Assembly (NCBI RefSeq): GCF_009765685.1
Contig: NZ_LMUY01000133.1
Coordinates: forward strand, 1 to 64,000
Direction: 5' to 3'
Length of the DNA: 64,000 nucleotides
From: Acidisphaera sp. L21
GTDB lineage: Bacteria; Pseudomonadota; Alphaproteobacteria; Acetobacterales; Acetobacteraceae
Below are positions 1 to 15,665 of the stretch, piece by piece. The notes below the pieces were generated by a model. It did no database searches and was not told where the DNA came from. It was given only the letters and a program-made list of their open reading frames with translations. Each line of letters starts with the position of its first letter. The stretch's first letter is position 1. A program made the translations under genes and the position numbers.

Positions 1-92
1 GGGGGCGCGGCGGGCGGCGGTGCTGGGCTGGACTGCGCAGCGGCAGGACTCGCCAGCAGGGCCAGCAAGGCGAGGGTTCGGCAAGAGGCCAT
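1..92 (-). CDS. secreted protein, N-terminus only (runs off window)
   Basis: Only the first 30 codons are inside the window. They read as a Sec signal peptide: a short N-terminus with one Arg, a hydrophobic Leu/Ala core and a likely cleavage site after Ala-Ala-Ala (residues 17-19), followed by a Pro/Ala-rich stretch typical of a flexible linker. The start ATG lies 29 bp downstream of the dapF stop on the same strand, so it is probably the second gene of a dapF operon. No domain is visible, so the function cannot be assigned from this fragment. Confidence 0.6.
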   Translation of the reverse strand, partial: MASCRTLALLALLASPAAAQSSPAPPPAAP

Positions 93-121
93 AGATCTAA
101 ATCTCTCCGTGATAACGATGG

Positions 122-931
122 TCACGCCGGGATGGTGTCCAGCTCGAACTGGCCCTGGAATGTTGTGGCGACCGGTCCCGTCATCTCCACGTGGTCATCG
201 TCGCGCCAGGCGATGTCCAGCACGCCACCATCGACGACGATCTCGGCATGCCGCCCTACCAGGCCACGCCGGCTGGCGTTGACCAGGGCGGCGCAGGCGC
301 CAGATCCGCAGGCCAGCGTCAATCCCGCGCCCCGTTCCCATACCCGCAGCCGCAGCCGGCCCGGTGCCAATACCTGAACGAACCCGACATTGGCACGGTC
401 GGGGAAGATCGGATCATGCTCGATCCGTGGGCCCAGGTCTGACGCAGATTCAAGCGGTTGATCGAAGAATGTGACGTGCGGATTGCCCATTGACGCTGCA
501 GCCGGGTCACCATCGAGCGGCACGTGCAGCGTGTCCGCCGCGTGGGCCAGTGGAATGTCCTGCCAGCCAAGCCGTGGCTTGCCCATATCCACCCGGACAC
601 GCCCATCGGGCAGCATCTCAGCCGCCAAAATGCCGGCGATCGTGCGGATCGACTGCCTGGGGTGCCCAGCTTCACGGAACAGCAGGTCAGCCACGCAGCG
701 TGTGGCATTGCCGCAAGCCCCAGCCTCACCGCCATCGGGGTTGTAGATGCGCATCGTCACGTCCGCATCCTCGGCCGGCCCCAGCACGATGAACTGGTCG
801 CAGCCGATCCCGGTATGCCGATCGGCCAGTGCGGCCACGCGAGCCGAGGTGAGACCGAGGGGGCCAGCACGCTCGTCCACCACGACGAAATCATTGCCGG
901 CGCCGTGCATCTTGTGGAAAGGGACGCGCAT
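122..931 (-). CDS. dapF: diaminopimelate epimerase
   Basis: Converts LL- to meso-diaminopimelate, the last shared step before lysine and the peptidoglycan cross-linking residue; cytoplasmic and PLP-independent. The 269-residue protein begins with the family signature KMHGAGNDF, and both catalytic cysteines are visible: Cys73 in EAGACGNATRC and Cys208 in ACGSGACA. The first motif usually reads CGNGxR, so the Ala in place of the second Gly is slightly unusual. The reading frame stays open far upstream, but homology begins at the chosen ATG and the usual length of about 270 residues fits. Window neighbours on this strand are a truncated secreted protein downstream; dapA lies at the other end of the window, not in the same operon. 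Confidence 0.95.
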   Translation of the reverse strand: MRVPFHKMHGAGNDFVVVDERAGPLGLTSARVAALADRHTGIGCDQFIVLGPAEDADVTMRIYNPDGGEAGACGNATRCVADLLFREAGHPRQSIRTIAGILAAEMLPDGRVRVDMGKPRLGWQDIPLAHAADTLHVPLDGDPAAASMGNPHVTFFDQPLESASDLGPRIEHDPIFPDRANVGFVQVLAPGRLRLRVWERGAGLTLACGSGACAALVNASRRGLVGRHAEIVVDGGVLDIAWRDDDHVEMTGPVATTFQGQFELDTIPA

Positions 932-989
932 GCGGCGGCTTATAGCCCGGGCGTTTGGCGGAGGTAAGACACCGCTTTCCCGCAGGTGC

Positions 990-1019
990 TTGATTTCCAG
1001 GTAATCCGTAGGGTATACG
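990..1019 (+). promoter_or_regulatory. candidate sigma70 promoter for rpmI-rplT
   Basis: A TTGATT hexamer (990-995) and a TATACG hexamer (1014-1019) are separated by 18 bp in the 180-bp gap between dapF and rpmI. Transcription would start near 1026 and leave a leader of about 85 nt, which contains a perfect 12-bp palindrome at 1051-1062. This is inferred from hexamer match and spacing only. Confidence 0.45.
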
Positions 1020-1111
1020 CCCGCCCCTAGTCTGTGCGCTGGGCCTGAAATGGGCATGCCCAGCCACGACGCCTGCGTTTCTGTCTGCAGGTCATTCGTA
1101 AGGAGATGCAA

Positions 1112-1315
1112 ATGCCCAAGTTGAAGACCAAGTCGTCGGTCAAGAAGCGGTTCAAGATTACCGCGACCGGCAAGGTGCTCGCCGGCCCCGGCAAGAAGCG
1201 CCACAACCTGATGGCGCGCAGCCAGAAGTCCAAGCGCGCCAACCGCGGCAGCCAGACCCTGACCCACGCTGACGGCCTGACCGTTAAGCAGTGGTGCCCA
1301 TACGGCCTCGTTTAA
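1112..1315 (+). CDS. rpmI: 50S ribosomal protein L35
   Basis: Small basic large-subunit ribosomal protein of 67 residues. It begins with the L35 signature [14 protein letters not shown] and has the conserved KRHNL and Lys/Arg-rich centre. An in-frame ATG lies two codons upstream, but the AGGAG at 1101-1105 has proper spacing only to the ATG at 1112. It forms an operon with rplT 12 bp downstream. In many bacteria infC precedes rpmI; here dapF stands divergently instead, so rpmI has its own promoter region. Confidence 0.96.
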
Positions 1316-1327
1316 GGAGAATCAGGA

Positions 1328-1684
1328 ATGGCACGCGTCAAACGGGGTGTAACCACCCACGCTCGTCACAAGAAGGTTCTGGAACAGAGCAAGGGCTTCG
1401 TCGGCCGCTCGTCCACGAACTACCGCATCGCGCTGGAGCGGCTGGAAAAGTCGCTGCAATACGCCTACCGCGACCGCCGCGTTAAGAAGCGCGAGTTCCG
1501 CGGGCTATGGATCCAGCGCATCAACGCTGCCGTGCGCGAGCATGGGCTCACCTACAGCCGATTTATCGATGGCCTGAACAAGGCTGGGATCGAGATGGAT
1601 CGCAAGGTGCTGTCCGCACTCGCCTTCGACGACCCGGCCGCGTTTGCTGCCGTGGTGCAGAAGGTCCAGGCCGCGCTGGCCTAA
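1328..1684 (+). CDS. rplT: 50S ribosomal protein L20
   Basis: The 118-residue protein has the expected family length and features: the very basic N-terminal extension ([15 protein letters not shown]) that reaches into the 23S rRNA, and the globular C-terminal part with the RRxKKREFRxLWIxRINAA pattern. It binds 23S rRNA early in 50S assembly. Preceded by an AGGAGA ribosome-binding site and cotranscribed with rpmI. In other bacteria L20 represses this operon through the leader; whether the leader here does so cannot be told by eye. Confidence 0.97.
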
Positions 1685-1687
1685 CGA

Positions 1688-2116
1688 ATGGTGGGCCGGC
1701 CCTTGACCCGTCGCGGCTTCGCCGCGCTGGCGGTGCTCGGGCTGGCCGCCTCGCCTGCCCTCGGGCAGAGCAGAGTTCCGGAAGTGGGGCCGCCCTTGGG
1801 GGTCGTCACCCTTCGGATCTCGTCCGCCAACGATGCGGGCTTTCTTCACGATCTGGCGGACTACACCAATCACTACGGCTTTGTCGTCGCCGGGACGCCC
1901 GGCGGCCCGGTCGTGGATGGCCGTCCCGCGTTCCTCGCCTGGTTCCGGCGCGACGATGGCGTGGTGATGCTGGTCACCGACATTTCCGCGGCGGAGAAGA
2001 TGCAGACCTTCTTCTACGGCCGAAAGGACGGAACCGGCGGCGAGATCGCGGCCGACCTGATGAAGAACTATGTCGGCAAGATGAGTGCTTATCCGGCGTT
2101 CGGCGCGGGCAACTAA
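1688..2116 (+). CDS. small secreted protein of unknown function
   Basis: 142 residues starting 3 bp after the rplT stop. The N-terminus (LTRRGFAALAVLGLAASPALGQ) has a twin arginine and a hydrophobic core ending in a typical Ala-x-Gly cleavage site near residue 26, so export by Sec or possibly Tat is likely. The mature part of about 116 residues has no cysteines and no motif I recognise. It ends about 50 bp before pheS and is therefore probably transcribed with the ribosomal protein and Phe-tRNA synthetase genes, an odd place for an exported protein. No function is proposed. Confidence 0.7.
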   Translation: MVGRPLTRRGFAALAVLGLAASPALGQSRVPEVGPPLGVVTLRISSANDAGFLHDLADYTNHYGFVVAGTPGGPVVDGRPAFLAWFRRDDGVVMLVTDISAAEKMQTFFYGRKDGTGGEIAADLMKNYVGKMSAYPAFGAGN

Positions 2117-2168
2117 TGCATCGGCGGCCCCTGGATTCGATCAACACCCAAATCAGTGGCATGCAATC

Positions 2169-3239
2169 ATGACCGACCTCGAGACGCTCCAAGCAGAGAC
2201 CGAGGCAGCGATCGCTGCCTCCACCACCCCGCGTGAGTTGGACGCGGTGCGCGTCGGCATCATGGGCAAATCCGGCCGATTGACCGCTATGCTGAAGGAA
2301 CTGGGCCGCGCTACCCCCGACGAACGGCGGGAACGCGGCGCTGCTCTGAACCGGGTGCGTGACGTCATCACCGGGGCGCTGGATCTGCGCCGGGTCGGGC
2401 TGGAAACGGCGGCGCTGGACTCCCGGCTGGCGGCCGAGCGGATTGACGTCACCCTGCCCCCACCGCCCGAGCAGTCCGGGCTGATCCATCCGATCAGCCG
2501 CACCATGGAGGAAATGGCCGCGATCTTCGGCGCCATGGGCTTCAGCGTCGGCGAAGGGCCCGATGTGGAAACCACCTGGCACAATTTCTCCGCCCTCAAC
2601 ATCCCCGCCCACCACCCGGCGCGCGCCGAAATGGACACCTTCTATCTACCCGGCACCCGCAACGGCCACCCGTTGGTGCTGCGGACGCACACCTCCAACG
2701 TGCAGATCATCTCCATGCTGCAGGGGGAGCCGCCGCTGCGGGTGATCGCGCCGGGTCGCACCTATCGCGCCGACCATGATGCTACCCACTCCCCCATGTT
2801 CCACCAATGCGAGGGCATCGCGATCGACCGCGGCCTCACGCTCGGCCACCTCAAGGGCTGCCTCATCGACTTCCTGCGCGCCTTCTTCGGCATCTCCAAC
2901 CTGCCGGTCCGCTTCCGCGCCTCCTACTTCCCCTTCACCGAGCCCTCGATGGAGGTCGATATTGGATGGAACCGCAAGACCGGCGAACTCGGCGGTGGCG
3001 GCGACTGGCTGGAGATCCTCGGCAGCGGCATGGTGCATCCCCGCGTGCTGGCCAATTGCGGCGTCGACCCGCGGGAGTGGCAGGGCTTCGCCTTCGGCAT
3101 GGGGGTTGAGCGGGTGGCGATGCTGAAATACGGCATGTCCGACCTACGCCCGTTCTACGAAAGCGACGCCCGCTGGCTCCGCCATTACGGCTTCAACCCC
3201 CTTGCCCCCGTGGCCCTGCACGAGGGAGTGGCCCCATGA
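2169..3239 (+). CDS. pheS: phenylalanine--tRNA ligase alpha subunit
   Basis: Catalytic alpha chain of the alpha2beta2 phenylalanyl-tRNA synthetase, charging tRNA-Phe with phenylalanine. The 356-residue protein has an N-terminal coiled-coil region (about 1-90) followed by the class II aminoacyl-tRNA synthetase core. Visible motifs are LLRTHTS-type LVLRTHTSNVQI, the motif-2 stretch RFRASYFPFTEPSMEVDIG, and the C-terminal motif-3 stretch GFAFGMGVERVAMLKYG. The reading frame stays open 84 bp upstream, but MTDLETL at the chosen ATG is the normal N-terminus. It overlaps pheT by 4 nt (ATGA), indicating translational coupling for stoichiometric subunits. Confidence 0.97.
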   Translation: MTDLETLQAETEAAIAASTTPRELDAVRVGIMGKSGRLTAMLKELGRATPDERRERGAALNRVRDVITGALDLRRVGLETAALDSRLAAERIDVTLPPPPEQSGLIHPISRTMEEMAAIFGAMGFSVGEGPDVETTWHNFSALNIPAHHPARAEMDTFYLPGTRNGHPLVLRTHTSNVQIISMLQGEPPLRVIAPGRTYRADHDATHSPMFHQCEGIAIDRGLTLGHLKGCLIDFLRAFFGISNLPVRFRASYFPFTEPSMEVDIGWNRKTGELGGGGDWLEILGSGMVHPRVLANCGVDPREWQGFAFGMGVERVAMLKYGMSDLRPFYESDARWLRHYGFNPLAPVALHEGVAP

Positions 3240-5692
3240 AGTTCACCCTCTCGTGGCTGAAGACGCATCTGGATACGGACGCGCCGCTGGACACGATCAC
3301 CGACGCGCTGACCCGCATCGGCCTGGAACTGGAGGGCGTGGAGGATGCCGGCGCCCCGCTAGCGCCGTTCCGCATCGCGCATGTTGTCGAAGCGGTGCAG
3401 CACCCCAATGCCGACCGCCTGCGCGTCTGCACCGTGGACACGGGCGATGGCGCCCCCGTCACGGTGGTGTGCGGCGCGCCCAATGCCCGCACCGGCATGA
3501 AGGCGGTATTCGCCCCACCGGGCAGCTACATCCCCGGCCTGGATACCACGCTGAAAATCGGCGAGATCCGCGGCATCCAGTCCGCCGGCATGCTGCTGTC
3601 CTATCGCGAAATGGCCCTGGGCGAGGACCACACCGGTATCGTCGACCTGCCCGAAGACGCCCCGATCGGCATCCCCTACCCCGCCTACGCCGGCCTCGAT
3701 GACCCGGTGATCGACATCTCCATCACCCCCAACCGCGGGGACGCGCTCGCCGTGCGCGGCGTCGCGCGGGACCTTGCGGCCGCCGGCATCGGCACCCTGC
3801 GACCCTGGGCGCGCCCGGCGATCGAGGGCAAATTCCCCTCCCCCATCACCTGGCGAATCGACAGCCCCGCCTGCCCCTGGGTGCTGGGCCGAACCGTGCG
3901 CGGCGTGCGCAATGGGCCGAGTCCGGAATGGCTGCAGCGCCGCCTGCGTGCCATCGGGCTGCGGCCGATTAGCGCCCTGGTGGACATCACTAACTTCTTC
4001 ACCATCGATCTGGGCCGCCCGTTGCACGTGTTCGACGCGAACAAGGTGCGAGGTGGCGTGCTAGCCTTCCGATCCGGCGCTGGCGAGACGTTCCGCGCCC
4101 TGAACGGCCGCGACTACACCACCACGGCGGACGATTGCGTGATCGCCGACGCGGCCGGCGTGCAGTCCCTCGCCGGCGTGATGGGCGGCGAGGCAACCGG
4201 CAGCCAGTTGGACACCACCGACGTGTTCATCGAATGCGCCCTCTTCGACCCCGTTGCCGTGGCACTGACCGGTCGCCGCCACGACATCATCTCCGACGCC
4301 CGCAGCCGGTTCGAGCGTGGGATCGATGTCTCTCTCCTCCCCGCCGCACTCGATGCGGCAACCGCCATGGTCATCGAACTCTGCGGTGGCGAGGCAAGCG
4401 AAGTCGCCGAGGCCGGTGCCGAACCCGCCTGGCAACGCCACGCCACCCTTCGCTTCGAGCGCCTGGAAACCCTGGGCGGCTTGGCCGTCCCAGCGGCTGA
4501 GGCCGTGGCAGCGCTGGAGGCGCTGGGCTTCACCGTCCAGTCGCGCGATGCGAACCAGGTGACGGTCGCCGTGCCACCGTGGCGCAACGACGTAGCGTCC
4601 GCCGGGTCGCTGGACCAGGCGCCCGCCCTGCTCCCCGAACTCGCCCTATCCGCCGCCGCTGGCCGTGCCGAAGCCGAGCCGGAGGCTGACCTGGTCGAAG
4701 AAGTCCTGCGCCTGCGCGGGCTAGATGCGGTTCCCGCCGTGTCGATGCCCGCAATGGCGCCGGTGCCCCTGGCCACCTACACCCCGCGTCAGGTCCGCGC
4801 CGCCACCGCCCGCCGCACTCTCGCCAGCCGCGGCATGCTCGAATGCGTCACCTTCTCCTTCGTCGCCCGCGACCGTGCCGCCCTGTTCGGCGACGCCCCG
4901 GCGGCGTTGCGCCTGGTCAACCCCATCGCCGCCGATCTGGACCAGATGCGGCCGACTCCCCTAGCCACCATCACCCCCGCCGCCGCCCGCAACGTCGCCC
5001 GCGGCCTGCCCGTCGGCGCGCTGTTCGAAGTCGGGCCCGCCTTTAGCGCCGAGTCGCAGGAGGTGCTGGCCGCCGGGTTACGCCATGGCCCGGCGCCGCG
5101 CAGTTGGGATGGCGCGGCCCAGGCCGCAAGCGCCATGGGGACCAAGGCCGACGTATTTGCCGTACTTGCCGCTTTGGGCGTACCCATGGACAGCCTCAGC
5201 GTCACTGCCGAGGCGCCCGCGCACTACCACCCCGGCCGATCCGGCACGGTTCGGCAAGGCCCGAAGCTAGCGCTGGCCTATTTCGGCGAGTTGCACCCGC
5301 GCGTGCTCGCCGGGCTGGATCTTCCAGGCCCGGCCGCGGCGTTCGAGGTGCGGCTTGACGCAATCCCCGAACCGAAGCGGCGCCGCAAGGCCCTACCCGA
5401 CCTACCCACTTTCCAACCGCTGCGGCGCGACTTCGCCTTCGTCGTCGACGCGGCCACCCCGGCGGAAACCCTGCTGCGCGCCGCCAAAGGGGCCGAGCGC
5501 ACCCTGATCACCGGCGTATCGTTGTTCGACGTTTACGAGGGCGAAGGTGTGCCCGCCGGCCAAAAATCGCTGGCGATCGAGGTGGTGATTCAACCCCGTG
5601 ACGCCACGATGACAGACGCCGCGATCGAGGCCGTGTGCGCCAAGATCGTCGCCGCCGTCACCAAGGCGAGCGGGGCCGTCCTGCGAGGGTAA
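3236..5692 (+). CDS. pheT: phenylalanine--tRNA ligase beta subunit
   Basis: Beta chain of phenylalanyl-tRNA synthetase, 818 residues. Order of domains: N-terminal substrate-like part, an OB-fold tRNA-binding domain (about 40-150, with NADRLRVCTVDTG and VVCGAPN), the B3/B4 editing domain that hydrolyses mischarged Tyr-tRNA (about 215-380), B5, an inactive synthetase-like core, and the C-terminal ferredoxin-like anticodon-binding domain (about 725-818, TFQPLRRDFAFVV). An Ala/Glu-rich insertion at about 455-480 separates the conserved PPWRND and DLVEEVLRLRG blocks, which are nearly adjacent in E. coli PheT; this may be lineage-specific. Starts within the pheS stop. Confidence 0.96.
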   Translation: MKFTLSWLKTHLDTDAPLDTITDALTRIGLELEGVEDAGAPLAPFRIAHVVEAVQHPNADRLRVCTVDTGDGAPVTVVCGAPNARTGMKAVFAPPGSYIPGLDTTLKIGEIRGIQSAGMLLSYREMALGEDHTGIVDLPEDAPIGIPYPAYAGLDDPVIDISITPNRGDALAVRGVARDLAAAGIGTLRPWARPAIEGKFPSPITWRIDSPACPWVLGRTVRGVRNGPSPEWLQRRLRAIGLRPISALVDITNFFTIDLGRPLHVFDANKVRGGVLAFRSGAGETFRALNGRDYTTTADDCVIADAAGVQSLAGVMGGEATGSQLDTTDVFIECALFDPVAVALTGRRHDIISDARSRFERGIDVSLLPAALDAATAMVIELCGGEASEVAEAGAEPAWQRHATLRFERLETLGGLAVPAAEAVAALEALGFTVQSRDANQVTVAVPPWRNDVASAGSLDQAPALLPELALSAAAGRAEAEPEADLVEEVLRLRGLDAVPAVSMPAMAPVPLATYTPRQVRAATARRTLASRGMLECVTFSFVARDRAALFGDAPAALRLVNPIAADLDQMRPTPLATITPAAARNVARGLPVGALFEVGPAFSAESQEVLAAGLRHGPAPRSWDGAAQAASAMGTKADVFAVLAALGVPMDSLSVTAEAPAHYHPGRSGTVRQGPKLALAYFGELHPRVLAGLDLPGPAAAFEVRLDAIPEPKRRRKALPDLPTFQPLRRDFAFVVDAATPAETLLRAAKGAERTLITGVSLFDVYEGEGVPAGQKSLAIEVVIQPRDATMTDAAIEAVCAKIVAAVTKASGAVLRG

Positions 5693-5702
5693 ACCGCCGC
5701 CG

Positions 5703-5737
5703 CCGTCATCGAACCGTCATCGTTGGGCGCGCATAAC
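5703..5737 (+). promoter_or_regulatory. Pho-box-like direct repeat with -10 element
   Basis: Two identical heptamers CCGTCAT at 5703-5709 and 5714-5720 are separated by exactly 4 bp (CGAA). This is the architecture of the PhoB box (consensus CTGTCAT-N4-CTGTCAT), with one change per half-site. Eleven bases downstream lies CATAAC (5732-5737), a plausible -10 hexamer at the spacing expected where PhoB replaces the -35 contact. The site lies in the 74-bp gap before an Ugp-type importer and a phosphodiesterase, a typical Pho-regulon context. PhoB control is an inference. Confidence 0.6.
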
Positions 5738-5766
5738 TGTAACGCAGTGCCGCCAAACAGCGCGCC

Positions 5767-6702
5767 ATGCCGGATGCGCTCGTCGATCTTGCCACTGTTC
5801 TGCCGACCGTGCCACAGCCCCAACGCCATGTCGGCGCTCGCTCCCAGGCGGGCACGGCGTGGCTGTTGCTGCTGCCGTCGGTGCTGTTGCTGATCGCCTT
5901 CACGTATTGGCCGATCGCGCAGGTGACGTGGCGCTCGCTCGACCAGGCACGGCTTGGCCAGGCATCGACGTTCGGCCTCGGCAATTACGCGCGGATGTTC
6001 GCCGACCCACATTTCGCCCAGGCGGCGTGGAACAACCTGCTCTACGCCGTCTTCACCGTCGTGCCCTCGATCGTGCTGGCGCTGCTGTTCGCGCTAGCCT
6101 TGCGGGAGAACACGCGGCTGGACGCAATCCTGCGCACGTTGGTGGTGTTGCCGCTGCTGATCCCATTGGTGGCCGCCGGCGCGCTGTTCACCTTCATCTT
6201 GCTACCCGGCGAAGGGCTGCTGGATTTCTACCTGGCGAAGTTGGGCGTCGGCGCGACCAATTGGCTGGGTAATCCCTCACTCGCGCTGGGCGCCGTCATC
6301 GCGATCACGGTGTGGAAGAACACCGGCTACTACATGCTGTTCTTCCTCGCCGGGCTGGCGGCGGTGCCGACCGAGTTGCTGGACGCCGCACGCGTGGATG
6401 GCGCGGGCGCCTGGAACCGGCTGCGCCACGTCACCCTGCCGCTCTTAGGCCCGACCTTCGGCTTCGTCATCCCGATTGCATTGCTGAACGCGCTGACCCA
6501 GGTGGATCACGTGGTGACGATGACGCGGGGCGGTCCTTCGGACTCCACCAATCTGCTGCTGTATTACATCTACCAGCAGGCCGAGCAGAATTTCGACCCG
6601 GGCGTCGCCTCCGCCGCCACGGTGGTCAGCGTCGCATCCCTGCTGGCCCTGGCGCTGCTGGCACTGCGCACGTCCGATCGGAACGCGCACCATGCCAGCT
6701 AG
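5767..6702 (+). CDS. Ugp-type ABC importer permease, first subunit
   Basis: 311-residue inner-membrane permease of the carbohydrate/glycerol-phosphate (CUT1) importer class, resembling UgpA. About six membrane segments begin near residue 32 (AWLLLLPSVLLLIAF). The cytoplasmic EAA loop that docks to the ATPase is visible as ELLDAARVDGAGAWNRLRHVTLPLL (shown only in part here; about residues 205-230). An N-terminal tail of about 30 residues is longer than in E. coli UgpA, and no good ribosome-binding site precedes the ATG. The second permease overlaps its end by 11 nt. Substrate assignment rests on the binding protein and the adjoining phosphodiesterase. Confidence 0.85.
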   Translation: MPDALVDLATVLPTVPQPQRHVGARSQAGTAWLLLLPSVLLLIAFTYWPIAQVTWRSLDQARLGQASTFGLGNYARMFADPHFAQAAWNNLLYAVFTVVPSIVLALLFALALRENTRLDAILRTLVVLPLLIPLVAAGALFTFILLPGEGLLDFYLAKLGVGATNWLGNPSLALGAVIAITVWKNTGYYMLFFLAGLAAVPTELLDAARVDGAGAWNRLRHVTLPLLGPTFGFVIPIALLNALTQVDHVVTMTRGGPSDSTNLLLYYIYQQAEQNFDPGVASAATVVSVASLLALALLALRTSDRNAHHAS

Positions 6703-7504
6703 CCGCATCCCAACGCTGATCGCGTTGCCCGCCGCGGTGCTGTGGGCTGTTCCGTTCCTCTGGATGCTGGTGGCAAGCCTGCGACCAGGCTACGCGCCCG
6801 ACATCGCCTCCCTACTGCCGCACGGGCCATTCGGCGCCGACAACATCGTCGAGGCTTGGCAGGACGGCAGTTTTCCCATCTGGTACCTCAACACCATCCT
6901 GCTGTGTGGTGGCATTCTGGTGGTGCAGTTCGTCACCATTTCCATGGCCGGTTACGCCTTCGCCCGCCTGCACTTCCGTGGCGAGCGGTTGGTGTTCGCG
7001 GCGTTCCTGCTGCAATTGCTGCTGGTGCCGACGCTGCTGATCGTGCCGAACCTCACCACGCTCTCCGCGCTCGGACTATACGACACATTGACGGGCGTCG
7101 CCGCGCCCTACCTCGCCTCCGCCTTCGGCGTATTCCTGATGCGCCAGACGTTCCGCGCCATCCCCCGCGATTACGAAGAGGCCGCGATGCTGGATGGCGC
7201 CTCGCGTCGCCAGGTCATCACCAGCATCCTCCTTCCCATGGCGCGGCCGGGGCTGCTGGCCTTCGCCATCGTCTCCGTCACCTCGCATTGGAACGAGTTT
7301 CTCTGGCCGCTGATGGTGATCTCCTCCCCCAGCCATCAGGTGCTGACGGTGGGGCTCGCCTCCTTCGCCTCGGGGTCGGAAGCCGGCGGTACCTGGGGCG
7401 TCCTCGCCGCTGGCACGCTGCTCGTCGCCGGTCCGTTGTTGCTGGGCTTCGTCGCCTTCCAACGGCAATTCACCCAGTCTTTCGTGTTCACTGGTATCAA
7501 GTAG
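6692..7504 (+). CDS. Ugp-type ABC importer permease, second subunit
   Basis: 270-residue permease of the CUT1 family resembling UgpE, with six predicted membrane segments. The EAA motif appears near residues 163-185 (DYEEAAMLDGASRRQVITS), followed by the conserved SHWNEFLWPLM stretch. Together with the preceding permease it would form the heterodimeric channel for a periplasmic-binding-protein-dependent importer. Its start overlaps the first permease by 11 nt, and the binding protein follows after 9 bp. No MalK/UgpC-type ATPase is encoded beside it. Confidence 0.86.
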   Translation: MPASRIPTLIALPAAVLWAVPFLWMLVASLRPGYAPDIASLLPHGPFGADNIVEAWQDGSFPIWYLNTILLCGGILVVQFVTISMAGYAFARLHFRGERLVFAAFLLQLLLVPTLLIVPNLTTLSALGLYDTLTGVAAPYLASAFGVFLMRQTFRAIPRDYEEAAMLDGASRRQVITSILLPMARPGLLAFAIVSVTSHWNEFLWPLMVISSPSHQVLTVGLASFASGSEAGGTWGVLAAGTLLVAGPLLLGFVAFQRQFTQSFVFTGIK

Positions 7505-7513
7505 GAACATCCT

Positions 7514-8828
7514 ATGCGCCGTCTCATGCAGATGCTTCTCGCCGGCACCGCCCTCTGCGGCGCCACCGCCGCGCATGCCGCCACCGAAATCGATTTCTTC
7601 TTTCCAGTCCCGGTGCAGGGCCGGCTATCGAACGAGATCCAGCGTCTGGTGACCGATTTCAACAACCGGCATCCGGATATCCACGTCACCCCCACCTACA
7701 CCGGCAGTTATGACGACACGAACCTGAAGACCCACGCCGCCATCCAGGCCGGTCACTCCCCCGCAGTGGCGCTAATGAGCGCCAATTTCATCCGCGAATA
7801 CGCCATCACTGGCGACGCGGTGCCGCTGGACAAGCTCATCGCCGCCGACGGCCAGACCGACGATCAATACATGGACAAGTTCTTCCCACCCCTGCGCACC
7901 AACGCGATGGAGGGTGGACACGTCTACGGCGTGCCCTACCAGAACTCGACCCCCGTGATGTACATCAACGAGACTGCCTTCCGTGAAGTCGGCCTGGACC
8001 CGGACCACCCCCCCCGCCACCTGGGCCGAGTGGGCCGACGCCGCCAAGAAACTCACCAAACGCGACGGCAACACCATCACCCGCTACGGCCTGATGATGG
8101 TCACCACCTACGACACACTGGGCTGGCTGATGTCGGGCTTCACCATGTCCAACGGCGGCCAATATTACGACCAGGCTTGGGGCGGCGAGGTCTACTACAA
8201 CCAGCCCTCCACCCTCGGCGCCGTGCAATTCCTCGACAATTTGGTCCACCGCGACAAGGTGATGCCCGAGGGCGTCACCGACCCGAACGCCGTCGCCTCC
8301 GCCTTCTTCTCCGGCCGCGCCGCGATGATCGTGAACTCCACCGGCGCGCTCAGCTTCGTGCGGGACAATATGAAGCAGCCGTATCGCGTCGCCTTCATCC
8401 CCCGCGCCATGCGCAACGCCGTGGCCATCGGTGGCGGCAGCCTCATCATCCCCAAGGGCAATACGCCCGAGCGGGAGAAGGCCGCCTGGACCTTCATCAA
8501 CGACATGACCAGCCCGGCGGTCTCTGGCGGATGGAGCCGGTTCACCGGCTATTTCGCCCCCAACCGCCACGCCTACGAGCTGCCGGAGATGACGTCCTAC
8601 CTGGCCGAACATCCGGATGCCAAGGTGGCGCTGGACCAGTTGCAATACGCCCAGCCCTGGTTTGCCACCTACGCCACCGTGGCCGTGCGCAAGGCCATGG
8701 AGGACCAGGTCCAAGCCGTGCTATCCGGCCGTATCAAGCCCGCCGAGGCCGTCGCCAACGCGCAGCACGCTGCCGATGAATTGCTGCGCCCCTATGCGGA
8801 GCGCACCGCCCTGGAGGTGACCAAGTGA
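7514..8828 (+). pseudogene. UgpB-like solute-binding protein, frameshifted in a C8 run
   Basis: Periplasmic solute-binding protein of an ABC importer with a clear signal peptide (cleavage after AAHA, near residue 23). The first part, to Asp-His-Pro-Pro at about residue 167, is in one frame; the rest, beginning ATWAEWADAAKKL, is in the next frame. The switch falls in eight consecutive C at 8008-8015; seven would restore one 437-codon gene, matching the length of E. coli UgpB. STPVMYINETAFREVGLDPD and the later GGGSLIIPKGNT region resemble UgpB. Both halves are otherwise intact, so this is either a recent mutation, a slippage-controlled gene or a sequencing error. The phosphodiesterase gene overlaps its stop by 4 nt. 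Confidence 0.85.
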
Positions 8829-9646
8829 GCACGACGACGATCGTCCAGATTACCGATTTGCACATCCGCCCGGAGGGTGTGCCCGCTTACCGCGTCTGCG
8901 AAACCAATGCGCTAGCGGAGCGTGCCCTGCGCGTCGTCGCCCGGCTGAAGCCCGACGCCGTCATCATCACCGGCGATCTGACGGATTGCGGCCTGGCGAC
9001 GGAGTACCAATTGCTGGCGGGTATGCTGCAACGGCACTTGCACATGCCGGTTCACATGATCCCCGGCAATCACGACCGCCGGTCCGAGATGCAGGCTCAC
9101 CTGCCCGGCGTGCCAATGAGCGAAGGCTTTTTCCAATACACCGCCGAGATCGGCCCGGTCCGGATCGTCATGCTGGACACGGTCGTCCCCGGCCATGGCC
9201 ACGGCAGCGTCGACGGCGGCCGCCTGGAATGGTTGGACCGCACCCTGGGGGAGCAGCCGAGCCAGCCCACCATGGTCGCCATGCACCACCCGTCCTTCGT
9301 GTGCGGCATTGCCCATATGGACCGGATCAAGCTGCAGGAGAGCGAGGCCTTCGCCGCCGTCATCGCCCGGCATCCCCAGGTCACACGGATCGTCAGCGGC
9401 CACCATCACCGCCCGATCGTCAGCCAGGTGGCGCACGCCATCGCCTCGATATCCCCCTCCGTCGTGAACGCGGTGGAGTTCGATCTGGACCCGGCCGCGC
9501 CGTCCGCCTTCGTGCTGGAGCCGCCGGCGTTCCAGGTCCACACCTGGACGCAGGCCGGCGGCTTCGTGTCGCACAACGTGTTGGTCGAAAGCTTCCCCGG
9601 CCCCTACCCGTTCACCCTGGACAAGGACTATCCAGGCCACTCCTAA
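8825..9646 (+). CDS. GpdQ-like metallophosphodiesterase
   Basis: Binuclear metal phosphodiesterase of the calcineurin-like fold, 273 residues. It carries the full ligand set of the CpdA/GpdQ group: Asp11-x-His13, Gly-Asp51, Gly-Asn82-His83-Asp84, a His pair near 154-155 in MHHPSF, and GHHHRP at 192-197. Length (GpdQ is 274 residues) and position behind a glycerol-phosphate-type importer favour cleavage of glycerophosphodiesters to glycerol-3-phosphate; a cyclic-nucleotide phosphodiesterase is the alternative. No signal peptide, so it acts in the cytoplasm on imported substrate. Starts within the stop of the binding-protein gene and ends 2 bp from the convergent ggt. Confidence 0.87.
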   Translation: MSTTTIVQITDLHIRPEGVPAYRVCETNALAERALRVVARLKPDAVIITGDLTDCGLATEYQLLAGMLQRHLHMPVHMIPGNHDRRSEMQAHLPGVPMSEGFFQYTAEIGPVRIVMLDTVVPGHGHGSVDGGRLEWLDRTLGEQPSQPTMVAMHHPSFVCGIAHMDRIKLQESEAFAAVIARHPQVTRIVSGHHHRPIVSQVAHAIASISPSVVNAVEFDLDPAAPSAFVLEPPAFQVHTWTQAGGFVSHNVLVESFPGPYPFTLDKDYPGHS

Positions 9647-9648
9647 GT

Positions 9649-11400
9649 CTAATACCCGGCGGCCGACCCAGCCGGCCGCCGGTCGTCGTTGGCGCCATAC
9701 AGCAGGCCGGGGCGCACCCGGCCGGACATGGCCGCATCGTTGGCTGGGGCCGCCAACGAGCCCCCGGCCGTTTGGGAGGGCCCCACCTCGATCAGTTCGG
9801 CCGCGCCCCAGGGCACTTGTTCCGTAATGGTGTACCCCATGCCGCGCAGCAGGGCCTGCGTGTCTGGGGACAACGCATATGGCTCGGCATACAGCACGTC
9901 CGGCAGCCATTGGTGATGGATGCGCGGGGCGTCCACGGCCTCCTGCGGGCTCATGCCCAAATCGACCACGTTGAGGATCGTTTGCAGCGTAATGGTGATG
10001 ATGCGGGAGCCGCCGGGCGAGCCCGTCACCAGCAGCGTGTGGCCATTCTGGGTGACGATGCTGGGCGCCATCGACGACAGTGGGCGCTTGCCCGGCGCGA
10101 TCGCATTCGCCTCCCCCTGCACCAGGCCATACAGATTCGGCACGCCCGCCTTGACGGTGAAATCATCCATTTCGTCGTTCAGCAGGAAACCGGTATCACC
10201 GGCAATCACCACCGCGCCGAACGACCCATTGATCGTGTAGGTGACCGAGACCGCATTGCCATCCTTGTCGACCACGGAATACTGCGTCGTTTCCGGTTTT
10301 TCGTGCGGGGCCGTGCCGGGCTGTAAATCCGCCGAGGGCGTGGCGCGGTCAGTGATGCGCGCGCGGATGTCAGCGGCATAGGCCTTGGACAGCAAGCGAT
10401 CCAGCGGGTTGTGCACGAACGCCGGGTCACCCAGGAAGGTGTTGCGGTCGAGATAGGCGTGGCGCATCGCCTCCGTCATCAGATGCACGGATTGCGCGCT
10501 GTGGAAGCCGAGCGACGTCATGTCGTAGCCTTCCAGAACGTTCAGGATCTCGCACATCGTGACGCCGCCGGACGATGGCGGCGGCGCGGAGACGACCACG
10601 ACGTTGCGATAGCTGCAGCGCAACGGGTCGGTGTCCTCCACGCGGTAGGCGGCGAAATCAGCTTCCGTCAAGATGCCGCCATCCTCGCGCGCCGCCGCCG
10701 CGACTGCCTGCGGAATGTGCCCGTGGTAGAAGGCATCCGCGCCGCCGGCTGAAATCGCGGCCAATGTGTTGGCCAGGTCGGTCTGCACGAGGCGGTCGCC
10801 AGGTTGGAACGGGCTGCCGTCGGAGCGTAGGAAAATCTTTGCGATATTCGGTTGGCGTCGAAAACGGGCGATCTTGCTGTCCAAGATATCGGTATCGCCG
10901 CGGGCCAACACGAAGCCGTCGCGCGCTAACTGGATGGCCGGCGCCATCACCACGGCCCGGGGCAAGGTGCCATAGCGACGCAGTGCCGCCTCCAACCCCG
11001 CGACCGTGCCGGGCACGCCGGCAGAGCGGGTGCCGTATAGCGTGGCCTCGGGGACTGGATTGCCGGCGGGGTCCAGATACATGCCGACCGTGGCCGCGGC
11101 TGGGGCGGTTTCGCGGAAGTTCAAAAACCGGTCGCGCCCGTCGGCCAGATGCAGCGTCATGAACCCGCCGCCGCCAATATTGCCGCAGCACGGGTTCACC
11201 ACTGCCAGCGCGTAGCCAACCGCCACTGCCGCATCCACCGCATTGCCACCCTGGCGTAACATCGCCAACCCGGCCTCCGACGCCGAATGTTGCGCGCTGA
11301 CGACCATGCCGTTGCGCGCCTCCGTTGCATCAGGTGACGCCGCAAGCGCCGGAACGCCGACGATGAGGAGGGCTGCAAGGATCAAGCCTGATGGCGACAT
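9649..11400 (-). CDS. ggt: gamma-glutamyltransferase
   Basis: Periplasmic N-terminal nucleophile hydrolase that transfers or hydrolyses the gamma-glutamyl group of glutathione. The 583-residue precursor starts with a signal peptide (cleavage near ALAAS, residue 21). The autocleavage site is visible: Thr371, first Thr of TTQYSVVDKDGNAVSVTYT, becomes the N-terminal nucleophile of the small subunit. The substrate-binding GSPGGSRI loop follows about 90 residues later, and the large subunit has the typical GGNAVDAAVAVGYAL and NIGGGGFM blocks. Transcribed alone, divergent from the small membrane protein/chemoreceptor pair across a 123-bp AT-richer gap. Use of glutathione as a sulfur or amino-acid source is inferred. 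Confidence 0.95.
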   Translation of the reverse strand: MSPSGLILAALLIVGVPALAASPDATEARNGMVVSAQHSASEAGLAMLRQGGNAVDAAVAVGYALAVVNPCCGNIGGGGFMTLHLADGRDRFLNFRETAPAAATVGMYLDPAGNPVPEATLYGTRSAGVPGTVAGLEAALRRYGTLPRAVVMAPAIQLARDGFVLARGDTDILDSKIARFRRQPNIAKIFLRSDGSPFQPGDRLVQTDLANTLAAISAGGADAFYHGHIPQAVAAAAREDGGILTEADFAAYRVEDTDPLRCSYRNVVVVSAPPPSSGGVTMCEILNVLEGYDMTSLGFHSAQSVHLMTEAMRHAYLDRNTFLGDPAFVHNPLDRLLSKAYAADIRARITDRATPSADLQPGTAPHEKPETTQYSVVDKDGNAVSVTYTINGSFGAVVIAGDTGFLLNDEMDDFTVKAGVPNLYGLVQGEANAIAPGKRPLSSMAPSIVTQNGHTLLVTGSPGGSRIITITLQTILNVVDLGMSPQEAVDAPRIHHQWLPDVLYAEPYALSPDTQALLRGMGYTITEQVPWGAAELIEVGPSQTAGGSLAAPANDAAMSGRVRPGLLYGANDDRRPAGSAAGY

Positions 11401-11523
11401 TGGCGACGCTCCGAGGGTGTCGAACCCTACCCTTCAAGCCCCGCGCCGAGCGAGGCGAGAAAGTCCTAACAAAATTTTTACGGTTCTCGATCAAAAATCG
11501 TCCAGTTTCTGACTAGGTGACCG

Positions 11524-11823
11524 ATGCTGTCCATCCTTCGACGCTTGCCACCCTACGCGCCGGCGCTGATGTTACTGGTCGCGCTCACCATGGCCACGCT
11601 CGCGAGGGCCCGCGTATCCGCGCCCGGCGGTGAAGTGGCACTGGTGTTCCCACCCTGGTGGTCGCAGGCGCAAGTGATGAGCGAGGCCGCGGCCGAGGGC
11701 CAGGTTATCCGGCTGGGGCCTTGGCGCAGCGTGGTCGTCATCAGGCCGACCACGGACGGGCAGCCCGGTGGGGCCTGGCTGCGACTAAACCCGATCATGG
11801 CAGGATGTGGCGATGTTGCTTGA
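11524..11823 (+). CDS. small single-span membrane protein preceding a chemoreceptor
   Basis: 99 residues: one hydrophobic segment (about residues 9-27) and a short C-terminal domain, probably periplasmic, with the blocks [20 protein letters not shown] and a closing LNPIMAGCG. The layout resembles small unnamed proteins I associate with alphaproteobacterial chemoreceptor genes, but I cannot name the family with certainty. The 3' end overlaps the chemoreceptor start by 11 nt, so the two are almost surely translationally coupled and may work together. No enzymatic residues are evident. Confidence 0.65.
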
Positions 11824-13300
11824 TCCAGGAACGAGCGTGCAGCCCGAGGCAGTAGAGCTTCAAACCATACGCCGCCTCGCCAATCGCGGCCTGCAAACAT
11901 TGTTGTGGCTGCAAGTGCCGCTCTGCGTCTTCGTGGCCTTGTGGAGGGGCGTCGACGCGATTTCCGCCGGCCTATCGACCGCGGGCATGGCAGCCGCGGC
12001 AACGCTCACTTGGGCCGCGTTCGGGTCGGGCGTGGCGACGCGGCTGACGGTTTCTGTTGCGCTGATGGGTTCGATTGCGGTGCTGCTGGCAGAAAGCGGC
12101 GGCGAATCCTGGCAGATCGACATCCACATGTATTTCTTCGCGGGCCTTGCCCTGCTGACCGCGTACTGCGACTGGCGCGCGATCGCATTGGCCACGGTGA
12201 CCGTGGCATTGCATCATTTGCTGCTGAACGAATTCGTGTCGGCCATGGTTTATCCCGGCGGCCCAAACATCCTGCGCGTTCTGCTGCATGCCGTGATCCT
12301 CATTCTTGAGGCGTCGGCGCTGATGTGGGCCACCCACACCGTCGTGCAGTTGCTGGCAAGCCGGGCGCGTCTGTCGGAACAGGTGCATCTGGCCGACCAG
12401 CGCGCCGCAACCGCCGCGTTAGAAACCGAGCGTCAAGCACTGTTGGCCCGGCATGAGGTCGCAACCAACCTCGCCAGCCGCTTTCAGGACACCGTCACGA
12501 AGGTAGTCGGCGAAATGCTGGTCGCGACGGTCGAGATGCAGAAGACTGCATCCAACCTGTCCGGTATCGCCGGCGACGCGTCCGAACAGACGGCGGCAAT
12601 CGCCGCGGCGTCGCAGCAAACCGCCATCAGCGTGATCTCGGTCGCGGAAGCTGCCGGACGGCTGACGGACAGCGTGTCCGGCCTGTCGGTGGAAATGGCC
12701 ACCGCGGCCGTTGCGGCACGGGATGCCAGCGCCGCCGCCGAGCAGACCCGCACCACCGTGGCCGACTTGGCCGACGCCGCCAGCAAGATCGGCGAAGTGG
12801 TGAGCATGATCCATGGCATTGCCGGCAAGACCAACCTGCTGGCCCTGAACGCTGCCATCGAGGCCGCCCGTGCCGGAGAGGCCGGACGGGGGTTCGCCGT
12901 CGTGGCTGGTGAGGTGAAGGCACTGGCCGCGCAGACCGCGCGCGCCACTGCGGATGTGCAGGGCCATGTCGCCACCATCCAGGCCCGCACCGGCCCAGCC
13001 GTCGATGCGATCGGTGCTATCGCCCGCTCGCTGGCAGACCTCGGTTCGGTCACCGACCACGTTGCCGCGTCGATCCAGGAACAGGGCCACGCCACGCGGG
13101 AGATCGCCGCCGGGGTGCAACAGGCGGCCAGCGGCAGCGACGCCATCGCCTCGAATCTGGAGCAACTGGCGCGCAGCACCTCGCAAACCGATCGCGCGGC
13201 GGCAAGCGCGCAAGAGGCAGCGTCCCGCCTGTCCGACCGGTCGGACCGGTTGAACGAGGTGGTCAACCGGTTCGTGACAACGGTGCAGGCGGCGGCGTAG
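11813..13300 (+). CDS. methyl-accepting chemotaxis protein with multi-span membrane sensor
   Basis: 495 residues. Instead of two membrane helices flanking a periplasmic sensor, the first 190 residues contain about six hydrophobic segments with a His/Cys-bearing stretch ([14 protein letters not shown], then [10 protein letters not shown]), suggesting a membrane-embedded sensor. No clear HAMP domain is visible; a charged helical linker (about 185-235) leads to the signalling coiled coil. The hairpin tip that binds CheA/CheW is well conserved around residue 340 ([18 protein letters not shown]). No C-terminal CheR-tethering pentapeptide. ATG 11813 is preferred over GTG 11807 because AGGA sits 7 nt upstream. 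The stop is 6 bp from the convergent phosphotransferase. Confidence 0.9.
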
Positions 13301-13306
13301 GTCGGC

Positions 13307-14368
13307 TCAGCCTAATAGGGCAAGACAGTCGAGGTCGTCGACGGCCAGCATGTTGCGCTCCAGGTTTGGCCACCAAACCCGCGCCGGCAGATTGCTGGTG
13401 GCCTGCCAGATCGGCCGCAGCATCTGCAGCAGAACCGACCAGCGATAGTCTTCGTCCAGCATCTGCCGTGTGTAGGTGGCTACGCCTAGCCCGGCGATGA
13501 CGCCATGATAGGCGTCCAGCAGCGGCGCCTCGACCCGGCGGCGGCGATCGGGAAACCACAGCATCGCCATCATGTAGGCGAGGTCGGTCGTGACCGTGCC
13601 GATCGCCCAATCCTCCCAGTCCAGCAGCCGGACCCGATCGTAGTCGCTGTTGCGTGGTAGCAGGCAATTCCACCAATGCGCGTCGCCGTGAATTAGGGTC
13701 AGGTTTTTGCCGGTATCGAGACGCGCGAGCAAACGCTGTGGCGAGTCCAGCAGCCGCGCGACCACATCACGCCGTTCGTCCGGCAGTGCCTCCCCAAACC
13801 GGTCCATGAACTGTTCGAACCGCGCGACGGACCGGTGGAGAAACTGCGCCCACATCATATTGGCCGAACGCCCCGCAAGCTGCACCAGCCGTGGGTCGTC
13901 CCACATCGCCGCATGCAGGCCGCCCCATGCCTCAATCACGCTACGGCACTGCGGCACGCTGGGAGGCAGCGGATGCTCTGTTGCGGTGACATGCGTGTCG
14001 GTTAGATCCTCCAGCACCAGGTGCCATGGACTTGCCGCAGTCGCGCTGGCAGTCGCATAGCAGTGCGGCACGAGCCGCTTGGGCAAGGTCGGCGCGATGT
14101 CGCGGTAGAACGCGATCTCATGCCTGTTCGTGGATGGTCGGCCTTCGACAGCGGGGTGGCCCATTTTGATGATGAGCGACGACGGGGCGGCTTTGGCCCG
14201 GTTGCCCTCATAGGTCAAACCGATACGGATTGTATGTGAGCGTAGCTTCTTGACCGAACTCAGCAGCGTGACATCGGCCAATTCGCTGGACGCCAACACG
14301 CCGGATCGGCGTAGCACCTCCGTCAGATACGCGGCGGTTGCCGGTGTTGGCATGGACAGCGCCATCAT
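13307..14368 (-). CDS. aminoglycoside-phosphotransferase/ecdysteroid-kinase-like protein
   Basis: 353-residue protein kinase-fold small-molecule phosphotransferase. Visible are an ATP-lobe Lys in SSLIIKMGHP, the catalytic loop LIHGDAHWWNCLL, and the metal-binding Asp in LLDWEDWAIG. The pattern (HLVLEDLTDTHV, then a His-Gly-Asp-x-His-x-x-Asn loop) is closest to the ecdysteroid-kinase-like/CHK branch rather than resistance enzymes, and the substrate is unknown. The start is uncertain: ATG 14368 has AGGGGG upstream, but an upstream in-frame ATG at 14450 also has GGAGG 8 nt ahead and would add 27 residues. Divergent from the GAF histidine kinase. Confidence 0.75.
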   Translation of the reverse strand: MMALSMPTPATAAYLTEVLRRSGVLASSELADVTLLSSVKKLRSHTIRIGLTYEGNRAKAAPSSLIIKMGHPAVEGRPSTNRHEIAFYRDIAPTLPKRLVPHCYATASATAASPWHLVLEDLTDTHVTATEHPLPPSVPQCRSVIEAWGGLHAAMWDDPRLVQLAGRSANMMWAQFLHRSVARFEQFMDRFGEALPDERRDVVARLLDSPQRLLARLDTGKNLTLIHGDAHWWNCLLPRNSDYDRVRLLDWEDWAIGTVTTDLAYMMAMLWFPDRRRRVEAPLLDAYHGVIAGLGVATYTRQMLDEDYRWSVLLQMLRPIWQATSNLPARVWWPNLERNMLAVDDLDCLALLG

Positions 14369-14467
14369 GTTTGCCCCCTCTCTCACGGCCCCTTCGCTGC
14401 CCGTAACTGAGGTGACGACCGGGTTCAATCGGGATAGGCTGAGGGACATGATAGCCGCCTCCCCCAG

Positions 14468-15655
14468 ATGACCCATGATTTCCAAGCGGACATCGACGCG
14501 GTGAACAGCATTGATGCCGTGCCGACCATTCTGAACGTTGTCTGTGCCACCACTGGGATGGGGTTCGCCGCCGTGGCTCGGGTGACGGAGGGGCGTTGGA
14601 TCGCCTGCAATGTTCGCGACGATGTTCAATTCGGTCTGGCGCCTGGCGGTGAGTTGAAGCTGGAGACGACGATCTGCCACGAGATCCGGCAACATCGGCA
14701 GCCCGTGATCATCGACAACGTCGCCGAGGACGCGGAGTATAGGAACCACCACACGCCGGCCATCTACGGCCTGCAGAGCTACATATCGATGCCGATCATC
14801 CTGCAGGACGGCACGTTCTTCGGCACGCTCTGCGCCATCGATACCAAGCCTCGCTTGCTGAAGACGCCAACGGTCCTTGGCATGTTCAAGCTGTTTGCCG
14901 AGTTGATCGCGTTCCATCTCGACGCCCATGCGCGGATCGCGCTCAGCGAGTCACGGCTGGCGACCGAGGTCGAGACGTCGAACCTGCGCGAGCAATTCAT
15001 CGCCGTGCTGGGCCATGACCTGCGCAACCCGCTCGCCTCGATCGGGAGCGGCGCCTCGATCCTGCTTCGGGAGCCGCAGACCGAGAAATCAACCCGCGTT
15101 GTCCAGCTGATGCAGAACAGTATCAAGCGAATGGCGGGGTTGATCGACAATGTCATGGATTTCGCGCGGGGTCGGCTGGGCGGCGGCATTACGCTGGCCG
15201 TCGATGCAGATGCCAGCCTGGGGCCGGCCCTGGAGCATGTCGTATCCGAGTTGCGGGCCAGTTGGCCGGATCGGCAGATCGAGGCAGCGTTCGACCTCCA
15301 AACGGCGGTAAGCTGCGATCCTGCCCGCATCGCCCAATTGTTTTCGAACCTGCTCGCCAATGCCCTCGCCCATGGTGTGCCGGAGTTGCCGATCACCGTG
15401 GCGGCCAGCGCCGGCAGCGGCGTATTCCGCCTGTCGGTCGCAAACCGTGGCGCGCCGGTTCCGGCGGAAACGCTGAAGCGTTTGTTTCAGCCATTCTTCC
15501 GGGGCGACGTCCGGCTGAACCAGCAGGGGTTGGGGCTGGGTTTGTTCATCGTATCGGAAATCGCCCGGGCGCATGGCGGCACGATCGACGTCACCTCCAC
15601 GGCCGAGCGAACGCAGTTCACGTTCCAGATGCCATTGCAGGCCAGCGTAGGCTAG
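14468..15655 (+). CDS. GAF-domain sensor histidine kinase
   Basis: 395-residue soluble histidine kinase. A GAF sensor domain covers about residues 10-160 (TICHEIRQHRQPVIIDNVAED and the SYISMPI/GTLCAID pattern), followed by a HisKA dimerisation helix with the phospho-accepting His in VLGHDLRNPLASI. The HATPase domain has the N box NLLANALAHG and G box GLGLGLFIV. No membrane segment, so it senses an intracellular or diffusible cue; the GAF ligand is unknown. No response regulator adjoins it (orphan kinase). The stop lies 10 bp from the convergent glutamine amidotransferase. Confidence 0.88.
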   Translation: MTHDFQADIDAVNSIDAVPTILNVVCATTGMGFAAVARVTEGRWIACNVRDDVQFGLAPGGELKLETTICHEIRQHRQPVIIDNVAEDAEYRNHHTPAIYGLQSYISMPIILQDGTFFGTLCAIDTKPRLLKTPTVLGMFKLFAELIAFHLDAHARIALSESRLATEVETSNLREQFIAVLGHDLRNPLASIGSGASILLREPQTEKSTRVVQLMQNSIKRMAGLIDNVMDFARGRLGGGITLAVDADASLGPALEHVVSELRASWPDRQIEAAFDLQTAVSCDPARIAQLFSNLLANALAHGVPELPITVAASAGSGVFRLSVANRGAPVPAETLKRLFQPFFRGDVRLNQQGLGLGLFIVSEIARAHGGTIDVTSTAERTQFTFQMPLQASVG

Positions 15656-15665
15656 GCCGCATGCC

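Follow-up and report, generated by a model that had tools for sequence, protein, structure and literature searches.

The closest described counterpart of the locus treated here is the ugpBAECQ operon of Escherichia coli, which, in the accessible parts of two accounts, joins a Pho-regulated importer and a cytoplasmic diesterase in one operon (PMC5438359, PMC4415409). The locus lies in a stretch of 64,000 nucleotides (hereafter the window) from the alphaproteobacterium Acidisphaera sp. L21 (Acetobacteraceae, contig NZ_LMUY01000133.1, positions 1 to 64,000), whose genome is a 6.38-Mb draft in 162 contigs. It takes up 5693-9646 of the plus strand and consists of a 74-bp gap that carries a direct repeat, two permease genes (A and E), a gene for a substrate-binding protein (B) and a gene for a phosphodiesterase (PDE), with neighbors that overlap or almost touch. 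This cassette is probably a Pho-regulon operon that would import a phosphodiester and cleave it in the cytoplasm.

As in ugpBAECQ, to the extent that its published description could be compared, an importer of the UgpB/A/E type is encoded together with a diesterase behind a Pho box. The cassette differs from the E. coli operon in its gene order A-E-B, in having no ATPase gene, and in subunits that score far below the Ugp cut-offs. Its hydrolase is a PF00149 metallophosphoesterase, whereas UgpQ belongs to the GDPD family PF03009. The enzyme shares all metal-ligand motifs with GpdQ from Enterobacter aerogenes (PDB 2dxl, 2zo9, 3d03), which is its best PDB match both by sequence and by fold. Unlike GpdQ, to which it is 22-23% identical in structural alignment, it is linked to an importer, and its substrate is putative. 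The best NCBIfam model is that of SpdA (NF050112), a class III phosphodiesterase from Sinorhizobium meliloti, but the enzyme reaches 143.9 bits against a cut-off of 400, and SpdA is placed at the cyaD1 cAMP-signaling locus in the part of the source at hand (PMC4222275). B belongs to the family of UgpB (PDB 4aq4, 9lff, 6r1b) and conserves its phosphate ligands, Gly, and Arg; it differs in an Ala at the place of the Glu/Asp that holds the glycerol hydroxyls and in a Trp clamp that appears not to be whole, although two alignments disagree on the Trp that is lost. The nearest system in the same genome is an operon on contig C67, with permeases that are close paralogs of A and E and a Pho box core in common. 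The C67 operon, however, encodes an ATPase of its own along with two binding proteins, and its last gene is of the phosphomonoesterase type.

The direct repeat and its conservation

The gap contains two identical CCGTCAT heptamers (5703-5709 and 5714-5720) separated by CGAA, with CATAAC 11 bp further on, as the earlier note had reported. The repeat fits the definition of the Pho box as two tandem 11-bp units, each with seven conserved and four less conserved bases, as given in the accessible text of PMC4415409. The exact 18-bp pattern CCGTCAT-N4-CCGTCAT occurs a single time in the 6.38-Mb genome. Within the 64 kb, nine positions begin a pair of identical 7-mers spaced by 11 bp, and three of the nine belong to this repeat. 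When the 400-bp upstream region is resampled with a Markov model, 2.1% of the resulting sequences contain YGTCRY half-sites paired at 11 or 22 bp. Taken alone, the repeat is only mildly unlikely to arise by chance; it is convincing because it is conserved in relatives and not by its own rarity. A conserved -10 element in relatives was not established for CATAAC (5732-5737).

For the comparison, 21 related loci, with the window excluded, were scanned for YGTCRY half-sites at spacings of up to 40 bp over the 400 bp that precede a set position in permease A. The set includes two loci from outside the family search (L002 and L004) and counts L177 alone for L003 and L177, which were taken as the same contig; three further cassettes from other families were not added. 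On the plus strand, 22 pairs are spaced by 11 bp and 13 by 22 bp, with none elsewhere between 6 and 21 bp and single pairs at 23, 33, 35, 36, and 37 bp. The minus strand holds one pair overall, at 21 bp, and lacks the 11- and 22-bp spacings. Of the 21 regions, 13 have half-sites paired at 11 bp and 17 have them paired at 11 or 22 bp, against a mean of 0.25 regions and a maximum of three in 1000 trials of first-order Markov resampling. As a control, upstream regions of PDE homologs outside the cassette were inspected, and one of 41 (L054) has a convincing array. L042 also has a pair, spaced by 22 bp, but it does not convince, and identity is as low as 36-39% for four of the homologs (L014-L017). 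Looser 11-bp units were seen by eye in L209 and upstream of the PDE-like gene in L211.

Similar units occur elsewhere in the genome. A consensus pattern with up to three mismatches matches 289 sites, compared to 113 with the reversed pattern, and the places named in the following are among the matches listed unless read by eye. Twenty regions of the genome were taken, of which seven were read gene by gene and the other 13 served for a homopolymer count only. On contig C100, a PhoB gene that passes its curated cut-off (325.7 against 296.2 bits) stands beside a pst operon, in which pstB is over its cut-off and another gene is presumably pstS, as recognized by eye. The 11-bp units before this pstS were likewise read by eye (CTGTCAC-ATTA-GCTTCAT-CGTT-CTGTCAC-ATAG-CCGTCGC). 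A ugpBAEC operon on contig C162 has the box CCGTCAT-AGAT-CTGTCAC (CCGTCATAGATCTGTCAC) near its start, inside the longest open reading frame (ORF) and upstream of the likely start of B. The C67 operon has CCGTCAT-CGAA-CTGTCGT directly upstream of its UgpC-like ATPase gene, and the core CCGTCATCGAAC is common to this box and that of the window. Two further sites were noted in passing: contig C9 carries ATGTCATCGAACTGTCAT (L136:4895-4912; 13 of 14 positions, spacer CGAA), which is among the four best Pho-box matches listed, and contig C25 has three tandem Pho-like 11-bp units TGGACATCGATCTGTCATCGGTATGTTAC ahead of a gene (L139:5673-5701).

By comparison with relatives, the reading of the repeat as a putative Pho box is strongly supported. 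The earlier note had proposed such a box and had pointed to the same gap in relatives as the place to check it; there the half-site pair is retained in most loci rather than lost, and the strict 11-bp periodicity, the PhoB gene next to the pst operon, and the units before pstS all agree with the proposal.

The importer and its binding protein

UgpA, UgpE, and UgpB are the best NCBIfam models for A, E, and B, and all three proteins fail the respective cut-offs (A 135 of 335 bits, E 98 of 297, the two halves of B 72 and 78 of 411). A plain assignment as "Ugp importer" was rejected on these curated cut-offs. E orthologs (E ≤ 1e-75) were found in 20 of 397 genomes of the family, referred to as cassette genomes below, and in four of 385 genomes sampled across the class, the source genome being counted in both. 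The ugpBAEC operon of the same genome lies on C162 (L140:5859-10073); its UgpA, UgpE, and UgpC pass their cut-offs, and its B, judged by pocket residues only, has the complete UgpB pocket set and served as positive control. An ugpQ gene is not found beside this operon. A PF03009 GDPD gene was found at a single place in the genome, on contig C1 (L205:1480-2337), and an importer gene was not seen among its examined neighbors.

No ABC (ATP-binding cassette)-ATPase motif occurs among the gene calls of positions 1-16000 of the window, so the cassette is without an ATPase gene, and none of the 23 UgpC-like places in the genome (E ≤ 1e-60) is on the contig of the window. In genome G772, a UgpC over the cut-off adjoins the cassette in divergent orientation. 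It is plausible that an ATPase is shared from elsewhere in the genome because the C67 ATPase has a clear ortholog in 12 of the 20 cassette genomes, the source genome included (64-68% identity in the other 11, next best 53%). Looser boxes can be seen by eye before these orthologs in five of the 11 relatives. The C67 operon (L134:5952-11249 and L184:446-2028) comprises the ATPase gene, two tandem genes for binding proteins, two permease genes, and a gene of the inositol-monophosphatase family, and it looks like a unit for the uptake and hydrolysis of phosphomonoesters. Its permeases share 45% and 47% identity with A and E, respectively, which makes them the closest paralogs among the loci of this genome that were compared.

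The N-terminus of B resembles a signal peptide by eye. For the binding pocket, the ligand residues of UgpB were taken from the accessible part of PMC12718374 and set on E. coli UgpB by motif, without a residue-by-residue alignment to 9LFF. The comparison covers 18 relatives and the window; L175, L179, and L182, whose contigs end inside the gene, were excluded, the second C67 binding protein, whose row was read in a wrong frame, was not used, and the row for Mycobacterium tuberculosis is shifted by one residue in the Arg column. Both Tyr and both Ser that bind the phosphate in UgpB are kept in 18 of 18 relatives and in the window, the second Ser being read as the first residue of S-T-G (likewise S-T-G in M. 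tuberculosis, S-S-G in E. coli). The Gly and the Arg are kept equally (18 of 18 and the window). Because the phosphate ligands are retained, the ligand of B is likely phosphate-bearing. At the acid position, Ala is assigned in agreement by phmmer against 4aq4 and 4mfi (L044) and by MAFFT. The two methods disagree at the clamp, where phmmer puts Met at the second Trp and MAFFT puts Tyr, Thr, or Ser at the first; neither shows both Trp residues. An AlphaFold model of the binding protein built from three sequences was too poor for use (mean pLDDT 45.9).

B is not one open frame in the window, as its reading switches frame at a run of eight C's. This run is the sole homopolymer of at least eight bases in the 64 kb, and one more was found in 231 kb of other sequence from the genome. 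At the same point, 20 aligned relatives have at most six consecutive C's, and in the 18 relatives examined, B reads through in a single frame. Past the shift, the GC content at third positions is 0.90 and still gene-like. A recent slip, phase variation, or a one-base assembly error are possible origins of the run. Because of the shift, either the unit is impaired in this strain or the assembly is in error.

The phosphodiesterase and its linkage to the importer

Judged from its motifs and best matches, the product of the last gene is a phosphodiesterase of the GpdQ/SpdA class. The class III motif, D-(X)n-GD-(X)n-GNH[E/D]-(X)n-H-(X)n-GHXH in the accessible text of PMC4222275, is complete, and the metal-ligand motifs D-x-H, GD, GNHD, HH, and GHxH are all present. 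The PDB search by sequence ranks GpdQ first (109 bits, E 3e-30) and Rv0805 next. A predicted model of moderate quality (pLDDT 64.7) gives the same order, GpdQ then Rv0805, in a fold search and confirms the class only.

The enzyme is present in 71 of the 397 family genomes (E ≤ 1e-60; counts of PDE and E taken as the same draw). It is enriched in cassette genomes, with 18 of 20 compared to 53 of 377 others (Fisher 7e-13), which favors a link to the importer. The enzyme gene follows B immediately in 12 of the 20 cassette genomes, in 11 of them on one contig and in one split over two (L049/L175, counted once). The order A-E-B-PDE is also found beyond the family, in Reyranella (L004) and in G772 (L209). 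In G753, a genome of another family, a divergent GpdQ/SpdA-like enzyme is encoded by the first gene of the unit (L211:3608-7647), which overlaps the start of A and is followed by A-E-B. This enzyme is 32% identical to that of the window, scores 244.5 bits with the SpdA model (cut-off 400), and has GpdQ as its best solved match; its gene is preceded by CTGTCAT-CAAA-CTGAAAC. An enzyme of the GpdQ type was thus apparently recruited independently in G753. The strongest argument for a tie between transport and cleavage is that the same importer has been joined by two different enzymes of one class. G502 has A-E-B without a PDE gene, and no PDE gene is present on the contig of L002.

Loci under comparison were also scanned by motif for glpK, glpD, and GDPD of the PF03009 type. 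Next to a PDE homolog, glpD and glpK were found in one genome only, G219 (L030 and L059 are the same place), where the homolog is 55% identical and overlaps a glpD-type gene that is followed by a glpK-type gene (L059:7551-11471). Because of this neighborhood, glycerol-3-phosphate is favored as the product.

The coordinates of the features are given in Table 1. The GTG start of the PDE gene overlaps the TGA stop of B (GTGA, 8825-8828). Upstream, the gap (5693-5766) separates the first permease gene from a large ORF (3236-5692), which we take to be pheT from inspection by eye; the minus-strand gene beyond the PDE gene is presumably a gamma-glutamyltransferase gene, recognized in the same way. 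Compared over the 3′ half of B, the named loci most similar to the window (64-65%) come from metagenome-assembled genomes called Acidisphaera sp. or Alphaproteobacteria bacterium.

Table 1. Features of the cassette, with positions in the window and the basis of each assignment.
Feature	Position	Strand	Basis
Pho-box-like direct repeat CCGTCAT-CGAA-CCGTCAT, two 11-bp units, putative PhoB site	5703..5720	+	Sequence; conservation in relatives
-10-like CATAAC, 11 bp past the second heptamer, weak	5732..5737	+	Sequence; inference
Permease A, UgpA-like, BPD_transp_1 (PF00528)	5767..6702	+	UgpA model 134.8 bits, cut-off 335
Permease E, UgpE-like, BPD_transp_1, 11-bp overlap with A	6692..7504	+	UgpE model 97.6 bits, cut-off 297
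Substrate-binding protein B (SBP_bac_1/SBP_bac_8), frame change at C8 run	7514..8828	+	Domain models, sequence
C8 homopolymer, point of frame shift in B	8008..8015	+	Sequence
Class III metallophosphodiesterase (PF00149), GpdQ/SpdA/Rv0805 group	8825..9646	+	Domain, sequence and fold matches

Proposed function, competing explanations, and implications

At low phosphate, phosphorylated PhoB would bind the 11-bp repeats and recruit RNA polymerase to a promoter downstream, as the conserved repeat suggests. The periplasmic protein B would take up a small phosphate-containing organic molecule, likeliest a phosphodiester such as a glycerophosphodiester. A and E would import this ligand with an ATPase encoded elsewhere, for which the UgpC-like protein of C67 and the UgpC of C162 are candidates. 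In the cytoplasm, the binuclear PDE would split the diester into a phosphomonoester such as glycerol-3-phosphate for use of the phosphorus. The scheme would parallel E. coli ugpBAECQ, with a nonhomologous hydrolase in the place of UgpQ.

Several observations weigh against this scheme. In this assembly, B is out of frame, and the cassette has no ATPase. A clear ortholog of the C67 ATPase exists in only 12 of the 20 cassette genomes, and in the 11 relatives no strict half-site pair precedes it (for one, only 282 bp were covered). Four of the 21 relatives (L004, L050, L176, and L177) lack a pair at 11 or 22 bp before the cassette, as do all three further cassettes from other families, in which no strict pair was found before A. 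The units before pstS were not flagged by the consensus scan (at least 11 of 14 positions) and stem from reading by eye. The enrichment of the enzyme in cassette genomes is uncorrected for relatedness. The PDE gene lies away from the cassette in five of the 20 and was not found in another two, G117 and G276, the cassette of G276 also being at a contig end; in G092, the contig ends before the position of the PDE gene could be read. Membership in the enzyme class leaves the substrate unfixed because SpdA, in the accessible part of its description, is a slow phosphodiesterase of 2′,3′-cyclic nucleotides (PMC4222275). Where UgpB has the Glu/Asp that binds the glycerol hydroxyls, all 18 relatives and the window have Ala, and glycerol-containing ligands are not assured because of this replacement.

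The last two points raise the possibility of a different substrate. If the operon is Pho-regulated but takes up a nucleotide diester (a 2′,3′-cyclic nucleotide, a dinucleotide, or similar), its PDE would be a cyclic-nucleotide phosphodiesterase like SpdA. SpdA is indeed the nearest NCBIfam model, to which the G753 enzyme is nearer still, B keeps the phosphate ligands of UgpB and not the glycerol-binding acid, and a uridylyl-guanosine-binding protein is placed close to UgpB in the accessible part of PMC12718374. Both SpdA scores are nevertheless far under the cut-off, both enzymes match GpdQ best among solved structures, and the homolog in G219 sits with glpD and glpK; a nucleotide diester is considered unlikely. 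Quite improbable is an ordinary Ugp-family importer of glycerol-3-phosphate or glycerophosphocholine whose PDE is a housekeeping hydrolase that is merely cotranscribed. This explanation accounts for the Ugp models as best matches of all three transport proteins, for the PDE genes apart from the importer in five genomes, and for the Pho array that is mostly absent before PDE homologs outside the cassette. It conflicts with the existing ugpBAEC on C162, whose A, E, and C are over their cut-offs and whose B has the full pocket, with the cassette proteins that score under these cut-offs, and with the second GpdQ-like enzyme that has joined the importer in G753. A chance origin of the repeat, with an operon outside phosphate control, is very improbable: about 2% of resampled 400-bp regions contain half-sites paired at 11 or 22 bp, but the strict 11-bp periodicity in relatives speaks against coincidence, as do the similar units in the pst and ugp regions of this genome. 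A chance repeat was rejected on its conservation in relatives.

Uptake and cleavage of a phosphodiester under Pho control is therefore retained as the likeliest function. The earlier note had described a phosphate-starvation unit of an Ugp importer and a GpdQ-type enzyme that imports and cleaves glycerophosphodiesters. Its Pho box is supported, and the import and cleavage of a phosphodiester remain the likeliest activity, but glycerol as part of the substrate is not assured with Ala in place of the pocket acid. The two permeases, the binding protein, and the PDE are all present, without an ATPase gene and with B not in one open frame. "GpdQ-type" is right at the level of the class, GpdQ being the best PDB match, while the nearest NCBIfam model is SpdA, itself below its cut-off. 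"Ugp importer" captures the best-matching models; the importer is not Ugp proper because its scores are low, the true ugpBAEC is elsewhere, the glycerol acid of UgpB is replaced, and an ATPase is absent, to which the broken frame of B is added.

More tentatively, and with some doubt, the cassette may represent a new class of Ugp-derived, Pho-regulated importers. In this class, the glycerol acid would have been dropped for another headgroup (e.g., an inositol or nucleoside diester), GpdQ-like hydrolases would have been recruited more than once (as last gene here and as first gene elsewhere), and the ATPase would act in trans. Together with ugpBAEC and the C67 operon, it would form a three-way division of organophosphate uptake by substrate class. 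By title or abstract, no description of the importer-PDE arrangement was found among the papers listed from the open-access literature, most subscription papers being outside this scope.

The locus suggests that the cytoplasmic use of phosphodiesters in phosphate-starved alphaproteobacteria could run on metalloenzymes of the GpdQ class instead of UgpQ, and it offers a possible physiological setting for these enzymes. It is also a test case for Ugp-type binding proteins that change their substrate and for ABC importers without an adjacent cognate ATPase gene.

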